From a virus: DNA of 20,264 nucleotides. Below are positions 1-20,264 of this stretch, one piece after another. The stretch spans positions 1-20,264 of IMG/VR virus record IMGVR_UViG_3300011430_000166. One strand, written 5' to 3'. The notes beneath the pieces are model-generated. The model saw only the letters and a program-made list of their open reading frames with translations. It did not search any database and was not told the origin of the DNA. The translations under genes were made by a program, and so were the position numbers. How positions within the stretch are numbered: the stretch's first letter is position 1; the number at the start of each line of letters is the position of its first letter.

Positions 1-3000
1 ACTGGGGGTAAAATAGCTGGCGCTCTTGGTGCAACTCAGGAAAGTGGAGGGCGCGCGTTTGGCGCACTGATGGACGCTACCAGTACAGGTAGTGAGAAGA
101 AGCCTCTGTCTGATGTAGTCTGGGAAGGTCTCAAAGGTGTCAAGTCAGGATATGAAGCAGGCTTAGGAGCTACTTCAGCGTCACAGGAATTTACAAAGCG
201 CGCCCCTGAAGAGACACTGAGTGGAGCTAACCCTGTACAGCGTGGGATGCTAGGTCTTGGTCTTGATGTAGTAACTGATCCAACCAATCTAGTTCCAGAG
301 AAGTATCTTGCGGCTGGAGCAGGCGCACTCATTGGTGCGACTCCTGAGATGGCGCAGACTGCTTGGCTTCCTCCGAACCTCTGGAAGCGCGCACGAGGGG
401 TCGAAGGTTTCTCGCACAGTCTGAATTACCCCCACCATGAAGATCTAGTCCTCAATAAAGGATTTGGTACTACGTCCTCTGGAGATGTGCTAGGCCGATT
501 TGGTCATGCAGGATACTACACTCCAAAGGAAGCCAAACAGGCTCGTCAGGCAGGTAAGCCACCAACAGGACAATCGAATAAGAGTTATCTTGGTGGTACT
601 CATATACCAGTTGATTTCCCAGAAACTACAAAGATTCTGGATGTTCGAGGCGCGCCCGTTCCGAAGGAAGATTTCGATGTAATTATCAAATCGCTAGATC
701 CTGTTGAGGATAAGGATTACATCAAGACTCTTACGAAAGCATTCAACGACCAACGACACTACGCCGAGGGTCCTAGTGCGGTAACACATGCGGCCGTCAG
801 GTCTGGTCAGGCTACACCGGAACAACTTGGGGCATACTACCAAAAGCTCAAGATGGACCCTGTAGCAACAGACGCCATCGATCGCTTGAATGGACTACTG
901 AGTTATCCTCAGGACTTCGGTCCTCATGTCAAGGTCAAGGGTTCTCGTGGTCAAGCACTGAGTAGTACAGGCGAGAAGCGATATGGCTCAGCCGCGCTCA
1001 ATCAACCCAGCGTGACAGGCGAGTTCGGTGGAATACACTATACAGATTATGTAGTTGGTACTCCCCAAGATACTAAGTCAGGGTCGATGGCCTTCGACCC
1101 AAGACAGACTTTATTCGCACCTGTAGGATCACAGAAGAATCGACTGACGACTCCTTGGAAGCAAGGTAAGATTGCTCCAGCCGGGATGCCAAAGGAAGGT
1201 GGTGGGACTTTTAAGGGAGTATTTCCATCGGATGCTCCCGGTGGAGTGTCAGCTCCAACTCCTGGTAATGTTGCTGGTCCTGCTGTAGTTCAACCTCCTC
1301 CAGTTCCTCCACCCTCTCAAGTATCTGCAGCTGAGTCGTGGGCGGCTGCAAATATGAATGAGGTTCCTACTGCGAAGAAACCTCCAAAGTCCTGGGAGGG
1401 CGCGCCCACATACAAGGGTAAGGTTATCTCGATAACCGAGCAAGGAACTCTCAAGGAGCTTGCGGCTGCGGGACGTGACCTCACCAAAACCGAGCAGGCT
1501 AAGCTTGCTGCAGTCAAGCAGTGGGAGTCTGGTCGTCCTGCCGATGTTCCAGTTCCTACGAGCCAAGCTCCAGCAGGTCCGGCATCACAGACCTGGGCGG
1601 ATATGTCTGATGCTGAGAAGTTACAACTCTCGCAGACAGACCCACAGAAATATCTTCAAATGTCGGAAGCTGCTATAGCAGAGCAGCCTCATGTCTATCA
1701 GGGAGTGACAACTTCCGCGACGGATGTAAATCGTCCAGCTACGATGCAACAGCATATAGCGGACTTGGATAACATCTTTGAGGAGGCTGGAGTCAAGCTT
1801 CCATACGAATTGAAAGAGGTCACGCCTGGCACAACTCCAGAGGAACTGCACCTCGCTGCAATAGAATACCTTGGGTCAGCAAGTCATTACGAAGCAGCCG
1901 AGGAAGTCCAAAAGCTCTGGGACATGAAGCTCAAGGGAGATACAGTTGATTCTCCACCGACTCCTACTGGTGCAGCTTTCGGTGACGTTGAAGCACCGGA
2001 TATTGGTAAGATCGACGTATTCAATGCAACAACTGGTAAGACTGTTGGAACATTTAATTCCCAGGCTGAGGTGGATGAATTTCTTTCCGTCCATCCCAGG
2101 GCCAGTGAATTAGATTGGGCGCCCCACGATCCATCGTTTGAGGCTCATGCGGCGATAGCAGAACCAACGGTCGAAGCTCCTGTCGATTATGACGCACAGT
2201 ATAAAGGATTCGTAGATCTATTCCACGATACTAACGCTGATCCTGAAGATGTCATGATGGCATGGAAGGATCTGCATCCTGCATTGAAGTCTAAACTCGC
2301 GTATGAAGATGCTGATTTGTTCCAGACCATCAGTAAGATGGAGGAAGCAGGAACACCTGAAGATATAGATCTTGGCACGATAGATTTCGATACGTTCGTG
2401 GGTGGTGCTACAAGACAGGCACCTGTCGCGAAGCCAAAGCTCGTCAAGGCTCCAGGACCTGTCGCAGCTCCAGCAGAACTTCCATCAGCTCTTCCCAAAG
2501 GTTTTGAGGGATTTGAAAATGTCCCTCTACCTAAGGCTCTTGATCCTCTTGGCAAGGAATCGATCAAGTCATTAGATACTCACGGCAGTTTAGATTATCT
2601 GAAGAATACCTATCCAGAGATTGCAGAGAACTTTGCCAAGCACAGTGGGACGGAGATGGGTAGCATCGAGTCCCACACAAAGGATGTGCTCAAGCAATGG
2701 AAGACCCAGCTAACTTCGGAGGAATTTGCAGACATCTCTAATCGCTCAGGGATGGATGTAGAAGCTATAATGAATCTTGCGCTCCCTCTACATGACATCG
2801 GGAAGCCGCAAGCTATAGCTAGCGGTGACAAGACTCTGCAGCACTCATTCACTACTCCTATTATAGAGGACATTCTACAGAAGGAAGGTTTTGATCAGAG
2901 AGACATCGATCTTGCTACAGAGCTTTTCAATCATGACATGATTGGCTCGCTTCTCCAAGGATCGAGCAAACTTACGCCGCAACAAGTAGCTGATGAACTT

Positions 3001-3939
3001 GTGAAAAAGGCCGACAAGGTCGGCATGGACCCTTCCGACTTTGCTAAGTTACAGCTCGCGTTCTTCCAGGCAGACGCTTCGTCATACCCGTTCGTCACGC
3101 AATACATGAAGCAACAGCCGAATGGTGGCTGGATATCAGGTAGTCCTAAAGTTAAACCTATTGAGGATTTGATTCAAGGTCCTACTGGTATTAAGAGTGC
3201 GGCGCCCACTGGTGCTGACACAGGATACCAGATCAAGGTAAAAGACGCCGAGGATATACTTGGTGGTACGAAGAACAAGGACATTTATACGAAGAACGGT
3301 CAGGACTATCTGTTCAAGGAAGCCAATCCAGCTTACTTCGCAGACCAGGAAGTTGCTGCAAACAAGGTTGCTAATCTGGCAGGCTTGCATCCCATCAAGA
3401 TAGAAGTAACACAGATGGGTGGTAAGACAGGCACGATGCAGGCTGCGGTCGGAAACAACATGAATTGGCCGACCCTGAAGGAAGTTGACCCTAAGACGCT
3501 TACTGCTGAAGAGCTTAGAGACGTAATCAGAAATCATCCTGTAGACTGGCTCACGGGAAATATGGATGCTCACGGTGCGCAGTTCCTACGAACTCCCAAC
3601 GGAATTGTCGGGATTGATCGAGGGCGCGCGTTCAAGAATTACGCCAGCAATAAGCTGCATCCAGATTACAACCCTACTGGCGGGGTGGGATACTACGACC
3701 AGATTTACAACGATATCGTAAAGCTCTATAAGAAGGGTGAGTTGCCTCAGCTAAGTGAGGCCGACATCAATGCTGCTATTAAGCAAACGACTTTTAAGAT
3801 GTATCAGAACACTAACGCAATCAGTGCTGAGATAGCAGACGGATTGGAGCGTTCCGGTCAGGGCCATCTCAAGGGTCTTGCCAAGCAACGCTTCCTGGAT
3901 CTAGAAAAAGATCTGTTGAAGTTCTGGACAGGTAAATGA
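1..3939 (+). CDS. Large multidomain phage protein (ART-like, HD and kinase-like regions), 5' partial
   Basis: The frame is open from base 1, so the true start lies upstream; 1289 residues follow the first visible Met at 70, which I use for numbering. Residues about 129-353 look like an ADP-ribosyltransferase-like fold of phage polyvalent proteins: a GHAGYYTPKEAK segment, then an ILDVRG strand, then GGIHYTDYVVG and SMAFDPRQTLFAPVG. This is the weakest call. A Pro/Ala-rich, low-complexity middle section follows. Around residues 903-912, LPLHDIGKP is a classic HD metal-binding motif, with later His residues (QHSF, FNHD). The C-terminus (about 1055-1190) resembles HipA or PI3/4-kinase-like folds: YLFKEA supplies the ATP-binding Lys, EVAANKVA the helix-C Glu, GNMDAHGAQF the catalytic loop and GIDRGRAF the metal-binding Asp. 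It overlaps the portal start by 4 bases (ATGA). It could be an injected virion enzyme or a modifier of head assembly; its role is unknown. Confidence 0.72.
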   Translation, partial: TGGKIAGALGATQESGGRAFGALMDATSTGSEKKPLSDVVWEGLKGVKSGYEAGLGATSASQEFTKRAPEETLSGANPVQRGMLGLGLDVVTDPTNLVPEKYLAAGAGALIGATPEMAQTAWLPPNLWKRARGVEGFSHSLNYPHHEDLVLNKGFGTTSSGDVLGRFGHAGYYTPKEAKQARQAGKPPTGQSNKSYLGGTHIPVDFPETTKILDVRGAPVPKEDFDVIIKSLDPVEDKDYIKTLTKAFNDQRHYAEGPSAVTHAAVRSGQATPEQLGAYYQKLKMDPVATDAIDRLNGLLSYPQDFGPHVKVKGSRGQALSSTGEKRYGSAALNQPSVTGEFGGIHYTDYVVGTPQDTKSGSMAFDPRQTLFAPVGSQKNRLTTPWKQGKIAPAGMPKEGGGTFKGVFPSDAPGGVSAPTPGNVAGPAVVQPPPVPPPSQVSAAESWAAANMNEVPTAKKPPKSWEGAPTYKGKVISITEQGTLKELAAAGRDLTKTEQAKLAAVKQWESGRPADVPVPTSQAPAGPASQTWADMSDAEKLQLSQTDPQKYLQMSEAAIAEQPHVYQGVTTSATDVNRPATMQQHIADLDNIFEEAGVKLPYELKEVTPGTTPEELHLAAIEYLGSASHYEAAEEVQKLWDMKLKGDTVDSPPTPTGAAFGDVEAPDIGKIDVFNATTGKTVGTFNSQAEVDEFLSVHPRASELDWAPHDPSFEAHAAIAEPTVEAPVDYDAQYKGFVDLFHDTNADPEDVMMAWKDLHPALKSKLAYEDADLFQTISKMEEAGTPEDIDLGTIDFDTFVGGATRQAPVAKPKLVKAPGPVAAPAELPSALPKGFEGFENVPLPKALDPLGKESIKSLDTHGSLDYLKNTYPEIAENFAKHSGTEMGSIESHTKDVLKQWKTQLTSEEFADISNRSGMDVEAIMNLALPLHDIGKPQAIASGDKTLQHSFTTPIIEDILQKEGFDQRDIDLATELFNHDMIGSLLQGSSKLTPQQVADELVKKADKVGMDPSDFAKLQLAFFQADASSYPFVTQYMKQQPNGGWISGSPKVKPIEDLIQGPTGIKSAAPTGADTGYQIKVKDAEDILGGTKNKDIYTKNGQDYLFKEANPAYFADQEVAANKVANLAGLHPIKIEVTQMGGKTGTMQAAVGNNMNWPTLKEVDPKTLTAEELRDVIRNHPVDWLTGNMDAHGAQFLRTPNGIVGIDRGRAFKNYASNKLHPDYNPTGGVGYYDQIYNDIVKLYKKGELPQLSEADINAAIKQTTFKMYQNTNAISAEIADGLERSGQGHLKGLAKQRFLDLEKDLLKFWTGK

Positions 3940-6500
3940 CGAATAACGCTGAAGACGAAATCCTCGCGCCTGAGCTGAAGCAAGCTCTTGACTCCTTGGT
4001 ATTGCAGATAGATTCAAGGGACCAGTTCGCTCGCGACCGGATGATGAAAGTTCTCAAGCGTAACGAGTACTTCTGGGAAGGTCTGCAAAACATCTACTTC
4101 TCTGAGGTTGCGCACGACTGGAGATTTATCAGCAGCACCGAAGGGGATGATTATGATTACGCAGAAGAGGCGGACATCGAGAACAAAATCGTCAACGTCT
4201 ACAAAGCCCACGGAGAAGTCATTATCTCTGCAATCTCACAGTCTCTGCCAGCAACTCGCTTTTATCCAAATGATGCAGACCAGGCTGAAGACATTTATAC
4301 CGCTCAGGCTTACACACGCCTCGCTGAATTAATACGCAAACACAATAAAGCTCCGTTCCTCTTTATGAAGGCTATTGGCCTTCTATACAATCAGGGCGTC
4401 ATAGCTGCATATACGTTCAACGACCAGAACAGCAAGTATGGTACAGAAACTGTTCAACATTTCCGTCAGGGAATGATCAAGAACAAGGTGGGATATTGCC
4501 CCGAATGTGGTGAGAACCTAGCTGTTCAGCCGATGAACACCGGGGAGCTTGCGGACCAACTCGGTGGAGCGCCCGTCGAAGAAATGCCCGTCCCTGAAGG
4601 TGCAGCAACGACGATCGAGAACAGCGCCTATCCGCAGGCAGAGGCTCCAGTAGAACCCCCTCCAGTAGAGACTGTGATGGAGCAAGATATGCCTGCGGAG
4701 ATGGGAATGCCGATTGAGCCTCCTGTTCCTGAAGCGATGGGTCTGGAAGGCTTACCTGATGAGGCGATGATTCCTCCTCCTGAGGAAGATGTCCTGGCGC
4801 AGCCAGGAATGATGGAGCCTCCTCCACCGAACGCGGAGATTTGTCCGAACTGTGGGGCGAACGTAGCTCCTATGATTGAGACAGAAGAAGAGCCTACTCA
4901 AGAACTAGATTGGGAAGAGACTGTCGCGAAGTCACGGCAGATCATTGAACTATACGGAGCAACCAATGTCCAGATTTTCCCACGGGCGCGCACTCTGCAA
5001 CAGTCGGGATATCTGATCCTGAACGATGAGCACGACGTCGCTGAGATGCAGGAGAAGTTCCCTCATATCGCTGACAAAATCGTGCCAACGGCGGATTCGG
5101 AAAGATACGACAGATGGGCGCGCGCCCCCTCTATTGTTCAGACGGATGATGATGCAGATGTTTGCACCTGTCGACAAATCTGGCTCAGGCCGTGGATGTT
5201 TAACAAGATTGGGAAGTCGGATGATGAGCGTGTGCTTGCGCTCAAGTCCCAGTTCCCCTCAGGTTTGAGAGCTATCTACATAAATGATGTCCTGGCCGAA
5301 GTTAACGACGAGGATATGGACGAGTATTGGACTGTGTCTGTTGATCCTATCCTGGATCGTGTCCACGGTCAGCCTTATGCTAATCCTCTCGTACCTATTC
5401 AAGAGATGACTAATGAAGTATTCCAGCTTACTGTCGAGACCATACGACACGGAATCCCTGAGACGTTCGTTGATTCTAGTGTCATCGACCTACAAAAATA
5501 TAGATCGATGGAGGTTTCTCCTGGGAGTCTATATCCTGTCAAAGCACCGGTCGGAGGAAATATCTCGGCGGCTTTCTATACGAATCGTGCGGCTCTTCTT
5601 TCCAGAGAGCACAAAGAATTCCATGATGATCTACAGACCGCTGGTCAGTTTGTACTTGGAACTGTACCGTCCGTCTACGGAGGATCAATGCAAGGAGGCA
5701 GCGACACCGCCTCCGAATACTCCATGAGTCGGGCGCAAGCCCTTCAGAGATTGCAGATCATCTACAAGATGATTTCATTCTTCTGGTCCGATCTTGAGAG
5801 CAAAGCAGTCAAGTGCTATGCTAAGAACATGAAGACGGACGAGAAGATTGTAAAGTCACAGGGCAAGAACTCCTTCGTGAATGTATGGATTCGTAAGGCG
5901 GAGATGTCTGGTCAGGTTGGTCAGGTCGAGCCTGAACTTTCAGAGCAGTTTCCTCTAGCCTGGTCTCAGAAGCGCGACATCATTATGCGCCTTGTTGAAC
6001 TGAATAACGAGGCTCTTAATGAGGCTCTGTTCCACCCTGAGAATCGACACACGGTCGCGGAGTTGATAGGTATTACGGAGCTGACTGTCCCAGGTGATTC
6101 GGATAGAAGCAAACAGCTATATGAGATTTACGAGTTGATCACTGGTCAGCCACAGCAGGTTGGGATGAATCCCATGGACGGTACGCCAATCCTACAGGCG
6201 ACTGTTCCGGTGGAACAGGACATCGACCAGCACCAAGTTCACATCGCGGTACTCAAGGAATGGTGTGTATCAGAGATCGGGATGGATCAGAAGATGACCA
6301 ATCCTGGTGGCTATATGAATGTTGTCGCCCATTTGCAGAATCATGTAGAGATGGAGCAGATGGAGATGATGAAGCAAATGATGATGCAAGGGGGCGCGCC
6401 GCCGCCTGAAGGTGGTCAGCCGCCCCAGTCAGGCTCGCCACCCAAAGCTAAGGATACTGAAAACATTCCAGCACCGAGAGGCATAGCAAATGTTCCTTAA
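3936..6500 (+). CDS. Portal protein with split zinc-ribbon insertion
   Basis: The portal forms the dodecameric DNA entry/exit ring at one head vertex. The 854-residue length, position before a scaffold and coat gene, and helical segments such as EVIISAISQSLPATRFYPND and SDTASEYSMSRAQALQRLQ resemble podovirus-type portals. The start ATG overlaps the previous stop as ATGA, suggesting translational coupling. An odd feature is an insertion with CPEC at residues 188-191 and CPNC at 303-306, separated by about 110 residues rich in Pro, Glu and Met. The two knuckles could together bind one zinc ion as a split ribbon. The C-terminus is Met/Gln-rich (residues about 805-825) and then Pro/Gly-rich. The identity rests on context plus family resemblance. 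Confidence 0.86.
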   Translation: MTNNAEDEILAPELKQALDSLVLQIDSRDQFARDRMMKVLKRNEYFWEGLQNIYFSEVAHDWRFISSTEGDDYDYAEEADIENKIVNVYKAHGEVIISAISQSLPATRFYPNDADQAEDIYTAQAYTRLAELIRKHNKAPFLFMKAIGLLYNQGVIAAYTFNDQNSKYGTETVQHFRQGMIKNKVGYCPECGENLAVQPMNTGELADQLGGAPVEEMPVPEGAATTIENSAYPQAEAPVEPPPVETVMEQDMPAEMGMPIEPPVPEAMGLEGLPDEAMIPPPEEDVLAQPGMMEPPPPNAEICPNCGANVAPMIETEEEPTQELDWEETVAKSRQIIELYGATNVQIFPRARTLQQSGYLILNDEHDVAEMQEKFPHIADKIVPTADSERYDRWARAPSIVQTDDDADVCTCRQIWLRPWMFNKIGKSDDERVLALKSQFPSGLRAIYINDVLAEVNDEDMDEYWTVSVDPILDRVHGQPYANPLVPIQEMTNEVFQLTVETIRHGIPETFVDSSVIDLQKYRSMEVSPGSLYPVKAPVGGNISAAFYTNRAALLSREHKEFHDDLQTAGQFVLGTVPSVYGGSMQGGSDTASEYSMSRAQALQRLQIIYKMISFFWSDLESKAVKCYAKNMKTDEKIVKSQGKNSFVNVWIRKAEMSGQVGQVEPELSEQFPLAWSQKRDIIMRLVELNNEALNEALFHPENRHTVAELIGITELTVPGDSDRSKQLYEIYELITGQPQQVGMNPMDGTPILQATVPVEQDIDQHQVHIAVLKEWCVSEIGMDQKMTNPGGYMNVVAHLQNHVEMEQMEMMKQMMMQGGAPPPEGGQPPQSGSPPKAKDTENIPAPRGIANVP

Positions 6501-15631: not shown

Positions 15632-15779
15632 GATTACGCTTGAAGAACTTTACCAGATCGTGGGTGAGCTAGAAGTCGTTAGGAGAAAACAACTGCTTCA
15701 AATCAGTGAGATGGCTGCTGAGATAACTCGACTGAGAGAAGAAAATGGCCGACTGGAACAAGCCGACAATAACGAGTAA
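15618..15779 (+). CDS. Small coiled-coil protein (53 aa)
   Basis: A short frame starting at ATG 15618 and ending TAA 15777-15779, with GGGGAG at 15608-15613 as ribosome binding site. It overlaps the previous gene by 14 bases and the following fibre gene by 35. Nearly the whole product is a charged amphipathic helix (ITLEELYQIVGELEVVRRKQ, then EITRLREENGRLEQ) with Leu/Ile spaced as heptads, so a parallel dimeric or trimeric coiled coil is likely. Phage fibres often use coiled coils and small helper proteins for trimerisation, so a fibre-assembly role is a reasonable guess. That both neighbours overlap it in other frames, as in the rest of this operon, and that it has a ribosome binding site support it as real. 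Confidence 0.62.
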   Translation: MGQFEITLEELYQIVGELEVVRRKQLLQISEMAAEITRLREENGRLEQADNNE

Positions 15780-16377
15780 TTACGTTGCTTTCGTCGATGA
15801 GCTAAAATCTCGTGACGCTGATGCTATAGCTCTGAATACAACTGCCACCCTGGGACTTCCTTATCAAGCTGTTAAACTTATTCGCGCCCCTGTTAAGTTT
15901 CAAGAGTGGGTTGGTGACAGATTTAGTGATCTTACACTTTCTGTCGAGGGTGGAGGAACTGGTGCAGCTTCAGCAGGTACAGCACGTTCCAATCTTGGTC
16001 TAGGTTCGATGGCACTCCAGAATTCAAATGCGGTTGCTATCACAGGTGGAACTGCTGCGAATATAGGACTGTCTGGAAATTGCTCTTATAATGGTAATGA
16101 CTTCCATATGTATGGGACGAGTGGGACTACTCTTATAGTCCACGGTCGCCCAGGTCAATATGCAGAGCATGTGGCTGGTGAGGGTGCAACAAATGGATCG
16201 TCTGGCCTACTCATTACAGCTGGTTGGGCAGGAGGGTATGCTCTTACAGTTCACAGAGCAGACTTCGCTGATCTTGGTCTTGTAGTTTCTGTTCCACCAA
16301 ACAATGGTCCTATGGTGTGCAATGCCCCTAGTCGGCTAGTCATTCCGTTTGGCGCGGATAAGTGGGCAGCCACGTAA
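15745..16377 (+). CDS. Tail fibre-like protein (210 aa)
   Basis: The N-terminus (MADWNKPTITSNYVAFVDEL, then KSRDADAIAL) matches the opening of many phage tail-fibre proteins. The segment VEGGGTGAASAGTARSNLGL followed by GSMALQNSNAVAITGG is the widely shared fibre shaft motif. The C-terminal half is Gly/Asn-rich beta sequence with three Cys-containing strands (GNCSYNGNDFH, PMVCNAPSR) that would form the tip. No peptidase or chaperone domain is visible. The start ATG overlaps the small coiled-coil gene by 35 bases. The stop TAA touches the ATG of the His-x-Asp protein with no gap, so these two are almost certainly co-translated. Confidence 0.8.
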   Translation: MADWNKPTITSNYVAFVDELKSRDADAIALNTTATLGLPYQAVKLIRAPVKFQEWVGDRFSDLTLSVEGGGTGAASAGTARSNLGLGSMALQNSNAVAITGGTAANIGLSGNCSYNGNDFHMYGTSGTTLIVHGRPGQYAEHVAGEGATNGSSGLLITAGWAGGYALTVHRADFADLGLVVSVPPNNGPMVCNAPSRLVIPFGADKWAAT

Positions 16378-17211
16378 ATGGCTAAGTATCAAGGTTCCTT
16401 GTGGATAGAAGGGAACAATCTACATTGGGTTGATGAGGCTGGTGTAGAGTGGGCTTGGCAGGGAATCTTTGTCAAGAATCAAACAGCCTATCCTGGATCT
16501 CTGTGGATAGAGAGTTACTACGTTTACTATGTCAATCAAGCTGGAAATCAAATTTACAGGACTGAAGCAGTTTGGAATGGTGAGTATCATGGTGTGCCGG
16601 GGTCTATCTGGGTAGAGGGTTCTTTCCTTCGGTGGATAGGTGGTGCTGAAGCTGCGGAAATGCACGCGCATCAAGATGTAGCACACATTGACGGTGGTGG
16701 TGCAGCCGCGCATGTAGATCATACGGATCAAGTGGCTCATACAGATGTCCCTCCTGGAGGACACTCAGATGTGCCACATAACGATTGGCATCAGGACTGG
16801 GGTCATGGTGACTCTCATACAGATCAACATAGTGATACTCCTCATACCGATGCACATAACGATATGCACGGGGATAACCCTGGTACTCTGAACCATAGTG
16901 ACTGCACCATTTACCAAAACGGTGAGTTCTACGCACATGGCGACTTCTACGACAACGTCAGCGTTGGTCCTTATAACTGTATATGGCACGACGATTCACC
17001 ACATCAAGATGTAGCTCATAACGATTCACATGCAGACGTGCCACATCATGACGACCCAGGAGCTAACGATCATCAGGATGTTCCACATTCGGATGTTCCA
17101 TCTGGTACTCATAGCGATGTGCCGCACTCTGATACTCCACATGGAGATCATTCAGACGCAGTTCATAACGATGCACCACATGTCGATAACCCAATCAATC
17201 TAGGTCCATGA
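16378..17211 (+). CDS. His-x-Asp repeat protein, probable substrate of adjacent radical SAM enzyme
   Basis: Length is 277 residues. Residues about 6-88 hold three copies of a ~35-residue beta motif beginning GSLWIEG, GSLWIES and GSIWVEG (at 6, 40 and 75), probably a small folded anchor. From His98 to Asp270 the chain is almost wholly His-x-Asp units, about 29 by my count (HQD, HTD, HSD, HND, HGD and others), four to five residues apart. They form two blocks separated by a spacer that contains the only two Cys (176 and 201). There is no hydrophobic core there, so the region would be extended or metal-bound rather than globular. It abuts the tail-fibre gene and overlaps the radical SAM gene by four bases. 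It could be a precursor modified in the manner of RiPPs, or a metal-binding fibre like the HxH-iron needle of T4 gp37. Its function is inferred. Confidence 0.8.
   Translation: MAKYQGSLWIEGNNLHWVDEAGVEWAWQGIFVKNQTAYPGSLWIESYYVYYVNQAGNQIYRTEAVWNGEYHGVPGSIWVEGSFLRWIGGAEAAEMHAHQDVAHIDGGGAAAHVDHTDQVAHTDVPPGGHSDVPHNDWHQDWGHGDSHTDQHSDTPHTDAHNDMHGDNPGTLNHSDCTIYQNGEFYAHGDFYDNVSVGPYNCIWHDDSPHQDVAHNDSHADVPHHDDPGANDHQDVPHSDVPSGTHSDVPHSDTPHGDHSDAVHNDAPHVDNPINLGP
16393..16641 (+). repeat. Three tandem GS(L/I)W(I/V)E repeats
   Basis: Three ~35-codon units encode GSLWIEG, GSLWIES and GSIWVEG at their starts, each followed by aromatic/hydrophobic strands. They lie before the His-x-Asp region and are clear at protein level. 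Confidence 0.75.
16669..17187 (+). repeat. Degenerate His-x-Asp coding repeat
   Basis: About 29 His-x-Asp codon triplets lie in this stretch, with a less repetitive interval near 16903-16980. Codons for His and Asp vary (CAT/CAC, GAT/GAC), so protein-level selection, not recent DNA slippage alone, maintains the pattern. The spacing is irregular and coding, so it is not a CRISPR array. Confidence 0.85.
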
Positions 17212-18383
17212 GTATAGAGTATCTACCTGTCGGGATTGCCTGCAATATCTCCTGTGGCTATTGCTATCAAGACCCTATGCGTGAGGCAGGGAACATCAAT
17301 GTTCCAAGGGACTGGTCTAAGGTCAAGGCACAACTTGAAAGACTAGGTTCTGACTTCTCGGTCTTCGGCGGTGAGCCTTTGCTCGCGCCCGTCGAACACC
17401 TCGAAGAGGTCTGGGCTTATGGATTTGAGAAGTTTGGTCGTAATGGGATTCAAACAAACGGGTCGTTGATTACCGATAAGCACATAGAACTATTCTCTCG
17501 ATACGCAGTGCAAGTAGGTATCTCGATCGATGGTCCTGGCAAGATGAATCGAGTTCGCTGCACTGATGAACTGACAGAGAAAACTGAAGAGGCCATTTAC
17601 AAGCTATTCAAGCAAGGTATCAATACCTCTATCATTTGCACCATACATAGGGGGAACAATGATATTCCTGCTTTGTGTAACTGGTTCGATCATCTTAGTA
17701 GGGGTGGTATCAGGTATCTTAATCTACACGAGATGGAAATCGATTGTGGAAGACGTGATCTCGCCCTCTCCGAAGAAAGACAAATCGAAACCTTCCTAGA
17801 ACTCTATGAGTGGTCGAAGACAGCAAAGATACAAGTTGCGCCCTTCATTGACATCAAGAGACTTCTAACTGAAGAACAGCCTCAGGTATCGTGCGTGTGG
17901 AATAGTTGCGACCCAATTACAACCGCTGCGGTTCAAGGAGTTTCTCCAAATGGTGTTATGTCAAATTGTGGTAGAACTAACAAGGACGGAGTCAACTGGG
18001 TCAAAGCCGACCGACCAGGAAATGAGAGATATATTGGACTTTATTACACGCCTCAAGAGCATGGTGGTTGTAGAGATTGTAAATACTTCGCTTTCTGCAA
18101 GGGTCACTGTCCAGGCACATCAATTGACGGCGACTGGAGAAACCGCACAGTTAATTGCAGACTCTGGTACTCTCTCTTTGAGAAGATTGAATTAGATCTA
18201 CGTAGTGATAAAAGTGTAAGAATCCTCTGTTGTGATAAGAAGCAGAAGATTGTCGATAGGATACTAGCAGGTGTTCATCCGGTGAACAGCCACGGTGATA
18301 CTCCTCACGGGGATTCTCATGGGGATCATACAGATGGTATTAGAGCTACAATTCTAACGGAGAAACCAGAGTGGGCAAACTAG
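17208..18383 (+). CDS. Radical SAM/SPASM enzyme with C-terminal His-x-Asp tail
   Basis: A 391-residue SAM-dependent radical enzyme. The 4Fe-4S site is CNISCGYC at residues 12-19 (CxxxCxxC), followed by the SAM-contacting FGGEP at 53-57 and GISIDGP near 106. The C-terminal SPASM signature is C288-x2-C291-x5-C297-x3-C301, with further Cys at 229, 234, 254 and 317 that could complete two auxiliary iron-sulphur clusters. Enzymes of this type modify peptides or proteins. The ATGA overlap with the His-x-Asp gene makes that protein the obvious candidate substrate. An unusual feature is a short His-x-Asp tail at 362-376 (HGDTPHGDSHGDHTD), so the enzyme may modify itself, or the tail may be a recognition tag. 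The chemistry is not determined by the sequence. Confidence 0.9.
   Translation: MSIEYLPVGIACNISCGYCYQDPMREAGNINVPRDWSKVKAQLERLGSDFSVFGGEPLLAPVEHLEEVWAYGFEKFGRNGIQTNGSLITDKHIELFSRYAVQVGISIDGPGKMNRVRCTDELTEKTEEAIYKLFKQGINTSIICTIHRGNNDIPALCNWFDHLSRGGIRYLNLHEMEIDCGRRDLALSEERQIETFLELYEWSKTAKIQVAPFIDIKRLLTEEQPQVSCVWNSCDPITTAAVQGVSPNGVMSNCGRTNKDGVNWVKADRPGNERYIGLYYTPQEHGGCRDCKYFAFCKGHCPGTSIDGDWRNRTVNCRLWYSLFEKIELDLRSDKSVRILCCDKKQKIVDRILAGVHPVNSHGDTPHGDSHGDHTDGIRATILTEKPEWAN
18291..18335 (+). repeat. His-x-Asp repeat tail inside the radical SAM gene
   Basis: Four His-x-Asp units at residues 362, 367, 371 and 374 of the enzyme, coded like those of the upstream repeat protein: both contain GTGATACTCCTCA-type stretches. 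This suggests a shared origin or recombination between the two genes. Confidence 0.8.
18359..18362 (+). promoter_or_regulatory. Ribosome binding site for a GTG start
   Basis: GGAG ends eight bases before GTG at 18371 inside the radical SAM gene. It supports the GTG as the start of the methyltransferase fusion gene, as there is no near in-frame ATG. Confidence 0.7.
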
Positions 18384-19708
18384 AAAGATTAGACTTTACA
18401 ATTCCAGATTTCCTTCGGACTGTGTGGGTGTCGGAGCATGCAAGGGAATACTGGGAGCCTAAGATTAGAAGTATCTCTGCAAGTTGGCATGCTATCGAGC
18501 GCCTCACGCTATTGCAGGGTATGCGTCCCGGTGTGTTGCAGAGCGTCACACCTGAAGAGCTACCAGATGTACAGAACTGGGCGCTCGCCAAAAACATTCC
18601 GATGGCGATCGTTGGGTTGGACGGCGCGACAGAAAGCTACGGTAATGCGTCGATACCCTACGTAGCAGGAGAGAGATTTACCTACAGAGTGTATTTTGGT
18701 CTAGAACCTGAGAAGTTTATAGATGCTTGGAAAGCTCAGGCTGACCTTGCTATTGGTCATATGCTTGGTTTTCCAGATTGTTGTACTGCATCCTTTGTTA
18801 CGCATTGGAAGAAAGAAGGATGGCGAGACCTAACGATCCATTCGTATGGTCAGCCTCTTCAGAGAAACTTGATGTATAACAATGTTCTACTACGGCACAT
18901 TGGTATACGTGGAGTCTTTCATCTTCCTTGTAGTGTAAACTGTCAGGAGAGCGTGAAGATAGGTGCGAAGATCATTGGCGTCATGATGCATACAGAGGGT
19001 CTGATGATGCCTGCGGATTGGTTGCAGCAGCTACTCGTTATGCCTATGGAGTGGACTTCTCTCCATGGTGTAGCGATGGTAACTACTCCTATCCTCAAGA
19101 CCATCTACGCATCTGATCCCTTGCCTACCAAGGCTACGTTACGACTGGACAGTGAGCTATACCCTGCACATGGTGCGAGCGGGAATAAGTTTCCATTCCA
19201 GAACGTCGTGACATCTCGATTGTTTTTCAACGGCTTCAAATCCAAATCGGATATGAGCGCGGCGCACTCGTTCATCGTCTCGGTCCTATCAGATGCTAAG
19301 GTTCATGGCAAGGTTCTAGACCTAGGTTGTGGTAATGGCATACTCCTCAAGAGGATTCAGGCCGCGCATCCAAATACGAAATTGCTTGGTGTCGATTCAA
19401 ATACGGCAGTCATCGAGGACATAGTTCCGGGTGTCATTCCCTACTGTTCTGACATCTTTAGCTTCCGCGAGTGGGAGAAAGTAGATCTAGTTCTGCTCTC
19501 GTCCCAACGCCTATTCGAGGTTGATCCTTACAAGGGTACAGCCCTTATGGAGGTGATTTCACAGTACTCAAAACGACTACTTCTCTACAACTATGGTGAA
19601 TGGCGTGAGGGTCTAGAGTACTACACAGATCCATATTTCACTGTAGTGACAGCAGTCAAGAACGACAATTACAGAGCGTTACTATTGGAGAGCAAACATG
19701 CCATTTGA
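18371..19708 (+). CDS. DUF483-like domain fused to a class I methyltransferase
   Basis: The gene starts with GTG at 18371, 13 bases inside the radical SAM gene, and encodes 445 residues. The N-terminal ~260 residues contain GHMLGFPDCCTASF (Cys137-Cys138) and HLPCSVNC (Cys187, Cys191), the hallmarks of DUF483-like proteins of unknown function. The Cys residues could bind metal or be redox active. The C-terminal ~145 residues form a Rossmann methyltransferase: VLDLGCGNG at 315-323 is motif I, LGVDSN at 339-344 places the acidic ribose-binding residue, and later VDLVLL strands follow. A second SAM-dependent enzyme in the same overlapping operon as the radical SAM protein suggests joint modification of the His-x-Asp protein, but its target is unknown. 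Confidence 0.8.
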   Translation: MGKLERLDFTIPDFLRTVWVSEHAREYWEPKIRSISASWHAIERLTLLQGMRPGVLQSVTPEELPDVQNWALAKNIPMAIVGLDGATESYGNASIPYVAGERFTYRVYFGLEPEKFIDAWKAQADLAIGHMLGFPDCCTASFVTHWKKEGWRDLTIHSYGQPLQRNLMYNNVLLRHIGIRGVFHLPCSVNCQESVKIGAKIIGVMMHTEGLMMPADWLQQLLVMPMEWTSLHGVAMVTTPILKTIYASDPLPTKATLRLDSELYPAHGASGNKFPFQNVVTSRLFFNGFKSKSDMSAAHSFIVSVLSDAKVHGKVLDLGCGNGILLKRIQAAHPNTKLLGVDSNTAVIEDIVPGVIPYCSDIFSFREWEKVDLVLLSSQRLFEVDPYKGTALMEVISQYSKRLLLYNYGEWREGLEYYTDPYFTVVTAVKNDNYRALLLESKHAI

Positions 19709-20264
19709 CATGAGTCGTTGTCCTCAGACAGAGGAAGAAGCCAAGCAGTGGTTCTTTCAGGGTATTGGTAAGGTCATTGGTCAGCCTGCCAATGATTGGG
19801 AAACTGTCATGAATAGCTGCGGACTTCCTCCCGGCTATGGTCCCAACGTCAGGCCTGACGCCTCGATGCCCTACTTCGCTTTCACTCAGCAGTACTCGGG
19901 TGGGCCGAAGGGTCGTATGTTCCTCCCGACCGCCATCCCCGACGAGCTGGGTTACTACACTCGTTGTATGCAGTACCTCGACGACGCAGCTCAGACCTAC
20001 AGCAAGACAAGGAACGCGAAAGAGAACTTCAATGCGAAAAGCGGTGGTTTGGTGTGGGCTTTCTATTGGGTTGCTGGCAATGAGTATGCTCCTGTACAGG
20101 GTGCTCAAGGAGGAACTCAACCTCCAGCAACTGGTGGACTGACAGAGGCTCAGGTTCAGGCCATGATCGACGCCTCGCTTGCCAAGTTCACAGGTGTCAA
20201 GCTGGGCGACAAGATCGCGCTCCGGACCAACTCAGGTCTGCTCGCAGGTATCAAGGGTGGTGGG
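19698..20264 (+). CDS. Uncharacterised protein, 3' truncated, possible beta-trefoil C-terminus
   Basis: The frame begins at ATG 19698 with GGAGAG at 19687-19692, overlaps the previous gene by 11 bases, and stays open to the window end (189 codons). The first ~140 residues are not recognised; they contain GQPANDWETVMNSCGLPPGY and an aromatic-rich segment. A Gly/Pro linker and a short helix (LTEAQVQAMIDASLAKF) precede the last visible residues, GDKIALRTNSGLLAGIKGGG. That ending resembles the first strands of a fascin-like or ricin-type beta-trefoil, which often binds carbohydrate. The rest of the domain is beyond the edge. It may be a virion adhesion protein. Confidence 0.72.
   Translation, partial: MPFDMSRCPQTEEEAKQWFFQGIGKVIGQPANDWETVMNSCGLPPGYGPNVRPDASMPYFAFTQQYSGGPKGRMFLPTAIPDELGYYTRCMQYLDDAAQTYSKTRNAKENFNAKSGGLVWAFYWVAGNEYAPVQGAQGGTQPPATGGLTEAQVQAMIDASLAKFTGVKLGDKIALRTNSGLLAGIKGGG

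Follow-up and report, generated by a model that had tools for sequence, protein, structure and literature searches.

A phage gene cassette that probably matures a His-x-Asp repeat protein, a candidate virion fibre, by radical SAM chemistry

We examined a three-gene cassette carried on 20,264 nucleotides of viral DNA (IMG/VR record IMGVR_UViG_3300011430_000166, positions 1 to 20,264; this whole stretch is called the window), in which a protein filled with His-x-Asp (HxD) motifs is encoded beside a radical S-adenosylmethionine (SAM)/SPASM enzyme and a DUF483-methyltransferase fusion (Table 1). The explanation we consider probable is a phage protein maturation cassette of the type known for ribosomally synthesised and post-translationally modified peptides (RiPPs), in which an HxD virion fibre would be cyclophane-linked by the radical SAM enzyme with DUF483. 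An earlier reading of this DNA, the original prediction, had the three genes overlapping one another, and the coordinates agree, with 4 bp shared by the repeat-protein and radical SAM genes and 13 bp by the radical SAM and DUF483-methyltransferase genes. The repeat-protein open reading frame (ORF) begins immediately past the stop of ORF 15745-16377; the predicted placement directly after that ORF was right, and its description as a tail-fibre gene is borne out only in part, the tail-fibre matches in PHROG being weak.

The 277-aa repeat protein contained 30 H-x-D motifs when overlapping ones were counted and 29 when they were not, in line with the figure of about 29 given previously. Within the repeat region Asp stood at +2 for 30 of the 31 His residues; 20,000 shuffles averaged 5.7 such residues and never exceeded 13. 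An N-terminal beta domain made of three GSxWIEG units (aa 1-96) precedes this region and a C-terminal strand (aa 271-277) follows it; AlphaFold2 (AF2) predicted the beta structure of aa 1-100 and the C-terminal strand confidently, and the intervening HxD stretch with low confidence. When eight relatives were aligned, the invariant columns past the N-terminal domain were almost all His or Asp, and the linkers were variable. Tandem DNA repeats were considered as the source of the motifs and rejected, none being found in the gene; since the spacing of the motifs is also uneven, mostly 3 to 17 residues, replication slippage is not their source. Searches with the repeat protein gave no informative match in PHROG, Pfam or NCBIfam, including no PHROG tail match; Foldseek returned nothing significant from the PDB, and a single significant viral match, A0A451ED92 (342 aa, E 3.6e-10), whose length is consistent with phiMa_29.

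The radical SAM enzyme matched PF04055 with 57.7 bits. Its CxxxCxxC motif and complete set of SPASM cysteines, both reported in the original prediction, were invariant over 56 relatives, and the 11 cluster cysteines were conserved together with His174 and Glu177. Overlooked earlier was the C-terminus of the enzyme, which bears four HxD motifs of its own, SHGDTPHGDSHGDHTDG; such a tail was present in 48 of the 56 non-redundant viral loci versus 8 of the 76 bacterial ones. The AmcB and DynA models were matched by all 56 enzymes tested (E below 1e-10), and among solved structures an anaerobic sulfatase maturase is the closest in sequence. The enzyme tree was a quick tree with its control rows on long branches, and for that reason no claim is made on where the family branches deep within the SPASM enzymes.

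The third gene matched DUF483 (PF04467; 26.2 bits against a gathering cut-off of 25) and class I methyltransferase models, so that the fusion described at the outset is confirmed. The DUF483 model was matched at E 0.001 by 29 of 54 relatives, and cysteines 137, 138, 187 and 191 were kept at 90% or more in the alignment of relatives. AF2 gave the whole protein a mean predicted local distance difference test score (pLDDT) of 93.7 from an alignment made without phage-database rows. In Foldseek the top matches of the protein were all methyltransferases, the methyltransferase half matching NodS, the plantazolicin methyltransferase BpumL and others. Two DUF483 genes were found in tandem in one viral locus (L066, 9846-11632), near a repeat protein with His-x-Asn motifs only.

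Table 1. Positions of the cassette features and of the adjoining upstream frame within the window.
Feature	Coordinates	Strand	Remarks
HxD repeat protein, predicted substrate	16378..17211	+	277 aa
HxD region of the repeat protein, 30 His-x-Asp, irregular spacing	16669..17187	+	aa 98-270; AF2 confidence low (about 50)
Radical SAM/SPASM enzyme, predicted peptide maturase	17208..18383	+	391 aa
CxxxCxxC radical SAM cluster motif	17241..17264	+	aa 12-19; invariant over 56 relatives
SPASM region, eight invariant Cys (229, 234, 254, 288, 291, 297, 301, 317)	17892..18158	+	
HxD tail of the radical SAM enzyme, resembles its own predicted substrate	18291..18338	+	aa 362-377, four motifs
DUF483-methyltransferase fusion, putative radical SAM accessory partner	18371..19708	+	445 aa, GTG start
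DUF483 part, conserved Cys137, Cys138, Cys187, Cys191	18371..19204	+	aa 1-278
Class I methyltransferase domain, VLDLGCGNG motif	19238..19693	+	optional across the family
Upstream ORF, weak tail-fibre family similarity	15745..16377	+	best PHROG E 1.1e-4

Searches with the radical SAM enzyme led to the Thermus phages phiMa, Cumys and phiLo (phiMa and Cumys grow on a laboratory strain, T. thermophilus HB8), to 72 viral contigs and to 79 bacterial genome loci, from which a non-redundant set of 132 loci (56 viral and 76 bacterial, the bacterial carriers spanning a dozen phyla) was prepared; the cassette belongs to a widespread and unnamed family in phages and bacteria. DUF483 was encoded in 128 of the 132 loci, fused to the radical SAM enzyme in 21, within 60 bp of it in 90 and within 2 kb in 17, and the four loci without it sit on fragments of 4-11 kb. 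A motif-repeat ORF was detected by fixed thresholds in 100 of the 132 loci at a median distance of 10 bp from the radical SAM gene; 20 further loci had a small peptide ending in H-x-D, an ending seen in 6 of 7,585 minus-strand small ORFs used as control. Neither DUF483 nor an HxD ORF occurred in any of 21 other SPASM loci; the control search with AmcB gave no member above its cut-off, and its loci served as other-SPASM controls only. The converse search used two DNA patterns for HxD repeats, took no account of the enzyme and was directed at viral ORFs. After low-diversity frames (tandem DNA repeats or wrong frames) had been set aside, 66 of 76 diverse HxD-rich ORFs lay on the same contig as this radical SAM enzyme; it accompanied 4 of the 34 tandem, short or low-count frames, each of these being the HxD-bearing C-terminus of the enzyme itself. 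In phiLo the HxD proteins are encoded about 4 kb from the radical SAM gene and on the other strand, and the linkage therefore survives rearrangement. The expectation that the three genes travel together was upheld for the radical SAM, DUF483 and repeat-protein genes; the methyltransferase motif was present in only 47 of the 125 DUF483 genes that were complete, and most of these 47 are viral (37 of 52 viral genes), so that the methyltransferase is an optional add-on and the core of the cassette is the radical SAM enzyme plus DUF483. From the co-occurrence in both search directions the HxD protein is, in our judgement, very probably the substrate of the radical SAM enzyme, as had been proposed; the fusions and the co-occurrence suggest that DUF483 acts as a substrate-handling or cluster partner. 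In one of the Thermus phages, phiMa_28 is annotated from 7115, and its frame is open from 7001 (L009, 7001-8251) as in Cumys_12; the annotated start leaves off the N-terminus with the CxxxCxxC motif.

To define the motif, every ORF within 6 kb of the radical SAM gene in the 132 loci was scanned blind for residue pairs of every kind at gaps of 1-6. His..Asp(+2) ranked first in 81 of the 132, His..Asn(+2) in 5 and Phe..Asn(+2) in 1. Across 4,072 His residues in 128 distinct repeat proteins, the residue at +2 was Asp for 84.7% and Asn for 11.1%; these proteins had been picked for H-x-D/N or F-x-N, and the His and Asn figures are thus partly conditioned by that choice, whereas the following enrichment is not. 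At 703 Asp residues the -2 position was not His, and there Tyr, Phe and Trp were enriched 9.7-, 5.7- and 5.9-fold over background; nothing comparable was seen at other gaps. One relative with the same GSxWVEG domain (L050) contains 37 Phe-x-Asn motifs mixed with His-x-Asp, the repeat protein of L066 has His-x-Asn motifs, and at three loci (L128, L140 and L147) His-x-Lys repeats stand at the C-terminal end of large bacterial proteins adjoining the radical SAM enzyme. The three His-x-Lys enzymes form one clade of the tree (support 100), and those of the viral His-x-Asn loci L018 and L019 form another (support 100), so that changes of motif go with changes of enzyme. Strict His-x-Asp is not the rule; Phe, Tyr or Trp can also occupy position 1, and Asn or, in one clade, Lys can occupy position 3. 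By analogy, the grammar is that of the three-residue cyclophanes (triceptides), in which the ring of Trp, Phe, Tyr or His at i is bonded to the Cbeta of Asn, Asp, Arg, Ser or Ala at i+2; OscB joins Phe or Trp to the Cbeta of Asn/Asp, YxdB joins Tyr to Asp, and HaaB and YhhB join His to Ala/Arg (PMC11002830). As a positive control the blind scan was applied to 9 GrrM/OscB loci, and in 3 of these its top pair was Phe..Asn(+2), a reported OscB bond. The cyclophane grammar is supported by the motif counts and agrees with the aromatic-x-x cyclophane format first suggested for the protein, now with Phe-x-Asn, His-x-Asn and His-x-Lys variants.

The relatives differ in what adjoins the enzymes; in some bacterial loci it is a small candidate precursor peptide, whereas the candidate substrate of the phage copies is a larger, fibre-like protein. 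In viral genomes the gene order around the HxD gene is that of a tail or baseplate region. The HxD repeats of one relative (L058) are carried on a collagen-like tail fibre (phrog_5073, E 1.3e-43), and those of two others (L031 and L080) on proteins related to virion structural proteins. A separate viral record of 205,857 bases (L214) encodes a 2,311-aa ORF with tandem HTDTA-type repeats and has no detectable relative of the radical SAM family of the window. The 20 small-peptide loci are chiefly from Bradyrhizobium and other Proteobacteria, and the peptides, 59-99 aa where inspected, end for example in GTIHIDIL or AAIVHFDG. Bradyrhizobium-type loci combine HIDx-tailed peptides (84 aa) with the RiPP C-methyltransferase TIGR03975 (594 bits against a cut-off of 282) and a radical SAM enzyme resembling the YydG epimerase. 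Peptides ending in H-x-D beside a radical SAM-DUF483 pair were observed in L137 (6660-6914), L138-L154, L159, L162, L108, L131 and L133; clusters of the L137 type contained, where scanned, the TIGR03975 C-methyltransferase and a YydG-like epimerase, and no NCBIfam model matched their small peptides. Some bacterial HxD proteins are lectin-like or crystallin-like. A 94-aa Pseudoalteromonas peptide beside a radical SAM enzyme of this family (L105, 8957-9241) combines HTD/HSD motifs with an extended alternating stretch of the DVDVDIDI kind.

We propose that the HxD protein is a component of the virion fibre, with a folded N-terminal domain and a C-terminal strand on either side of a long unstructured stretch, and that the radical SAM/SPASM enzyme, with the DUF483 protein, modifies every motif in which His or an aromatic residue is followed at +2 by Asp or Asn. 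The reaction would most likely begin by abstraction of a beta-hydrogen from the Asp/Asn at i+2, whose beta carbon would couple to the ring of the His or aromatic residue at i; each motif would thereby become a three-residue cyclophane and lose 2 Da. With dozens of these rings the fibre would be stiffer and better shielded from proteases or heat, and the crosslinked rigid fibre suggested in the original prediction stands as a hypothesis. The enzyme's own HxD tail probably acts as a mimic, of the substrate or for docking, and the methyltransferase, where present, may add a secondary mark. Three-residue cyclophane chemistry is the best reading of the bond, and in our judgement a rather likely one. 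The fullest form of the proposal has about an even chance; there, the phage radical SAM-DUF483 pair would turn the long unstructured segment of the fibre into a covalent ladder built from three-residue cyclophanes by the dozen, and a bacterial sister system would act on large proteins and small peptides.

Several observations weigh against this proposal. The modification is a prediction from the genes, and a virion location for the HxD protein is suggested by gene order and domain types. The window enzyme attains the cut-off of no NCBIfam model and lies far under those of the named cyclophane maturases (AmcB, 83 bits against 425; YhhB, 52 against 445; GrrM/OscB, 47 against 310), and the sulfatase maturase model scored nearly equal at 70 bits; consequently, the chemistry cannot be read from family resemblance alone. 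A recognition (RRE) domain was not seen. A His-x-Asp cyclophane is not among the bonds reported in the literature examined. Ten of the 76 HxD-rich viral ORFs lacked the radical SAM enzyme on their contigs, which may be incomplete. The GrrM/OscB loci of the positive control, at about 4 kb, were shorter than the test loci.

The pairing of enzyme and substrate would equally support modification of the HxD protein by other chemistry, such as epimerisation, beta-hydroxylation or desaturation of Asp/Asn, or a dynobactin-like His N-Cbeta link, with or without methylation. The best models include DynA and the anaerobic sulfatase maturase alongside the cyclophane maturases, and related bacterial clusters hold an epimerase-like radical SAM enzyme and a C-methyltransferase. 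A single-residue modification, however, needs no partner at -2 limited to His, Tyr, Phe and Trp and hardly others, and an obligatory His-N link is excluded for the Phe and Trp variants of the motif; such chemistry is in our estimate unlikely, although still to be reckoned with. The phage repeat protein could instead be matured as a secreted peptide or a host-directed factor, since RiPP-like small peptides occur among the bacterial relatives, as do large proteins bearing lectin or crystallin domains; the viral gene, however, lies in the tail/baseplate region and some copies have tail-fibre or virion domains, which renders this improbable.

Phe-x-Asn repeats are unable to chelate metal, and Phe and Trp replace His in place. 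HxH is depleted (0.7% of His, 27 of about 4,072), and Glu hardly replaces Asp (0.3%) whereas Asn does (11%). A fibre patterned by charge or made for metal binding, comparable to the HxH iron-binding tips of long tail fibres and with the radical SAM enzyme unrelated or incidental, is thus a very unlikely reading of the HxD stretch, even though both His and Asp bind metals well and phage fibres that bind metal through HxH exist; that explanation would also leave unaccounted for the co-occurrence with radical SAM and DUF483 in a dozen bacterial phyla. That the radical SAM module makes a DNA modification, as proposed for Cumys and phiMa from cyanobacterial loci near deazapurine genes (PMC11437467), we find barely credible. 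The suggestion took no account of the HxD repeats, a cyanobacterial relative (L088) too has an HxD ORF adjoining the radical SAM gene, the closest enzyme models are peptide maturases and relatives sit in RiPP clusters.

If the cyclophane-linked fibre is real, radical SAM peptide crosslinking would extend from small natural products to large structural proteins, a fibre would be covalently cross-linked by chemistry that until now has been described for peptide natural products of bacteria only, and a virus would encode its own iron-sulphur-dependent maturation of virion parts. DUF483 would gain a function as a near-obligate partner, and the family would make available a large collection of natural (His/Tyr/Phe/Trp)-x-(Asp/Asn/Lys) substrates together with the enzymes that match them.

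Elsewhere in the window, ORF 19698-20264 overlaps the DUF483-methyltransferase gene by 11 bp and exits the end of the record; it had no match in Pfam, PHROG or NCBIfam. Two large ORFs of 1,289 and 854 aa occupy 70-6500, with zero PHROG matches at E 0.01.

Among known systems, the triceptide maturases (XncB, OscB/GrrM, MscB, YxdB, HaaB and YhhB) are alike in having a radical SAM/SPASM enzyme adjoining a repeat or motif peptide, with an aromatic residue or His at i and an Asp/Asn/Arg-type residue at i+2. The window family differs in being separate from them, under all of their cut-offs and travelling with DUF483, and where those enzymes have a short precursor, its phage substrate would be fibre-like and about 200-1,500 aa long. 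DynA and DarE, the dynobactin and darobactin maturases, were among the best NCBIfam matches of the window enzyme (76 bits against a cut-off of 450), and in dynobactin the maturase joins a His to a Tyr at a distance of two residues; their substrates, however, are short antibiotic peptides. The Hxs systems, which the original prediction took as the closest named analogue, likewise have a His-x-residue repeat protein beside radical SAM genes; they are expected to have two radical SAM enzymes (HxsB and HxsC) and Ser at +2, whereas Ser followed His here in 0.3% (11 of about 4,072), no Hxs model was among the NCBIfam matches listed, and the analogy does not hold. HxH iron-binding tail-fibre tips share a His-rich motif of one-residue spacing in a phage fibre, an example being the fibre with potential iron-binding domains of PMC11705849; HxH depletion and the aromatic substitutions exclude chelation as the rule for the present motif. 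We found no phage-encoded cyclophane system in the open-access literature. The radical SAM module of the Thermus phages Cumys and phiMa, also present in prophages, has already been published (PMC11437467), so the statement that no phage system of this form had been described held only in part; it consists of the same three genes, encoding proteins homologous to those of the window cassette. That account lists two proteins of unknown function, one of them with DUF483; the repeats go unmentioned in it, and DNA modification is put forward as a guess. The novelty would accordingly lie in RiPP-type crosslinking applied to a virion protein, the module itself being already known from Thermus phages, and phiMa and Cumys allow the proposal to be tested directly.

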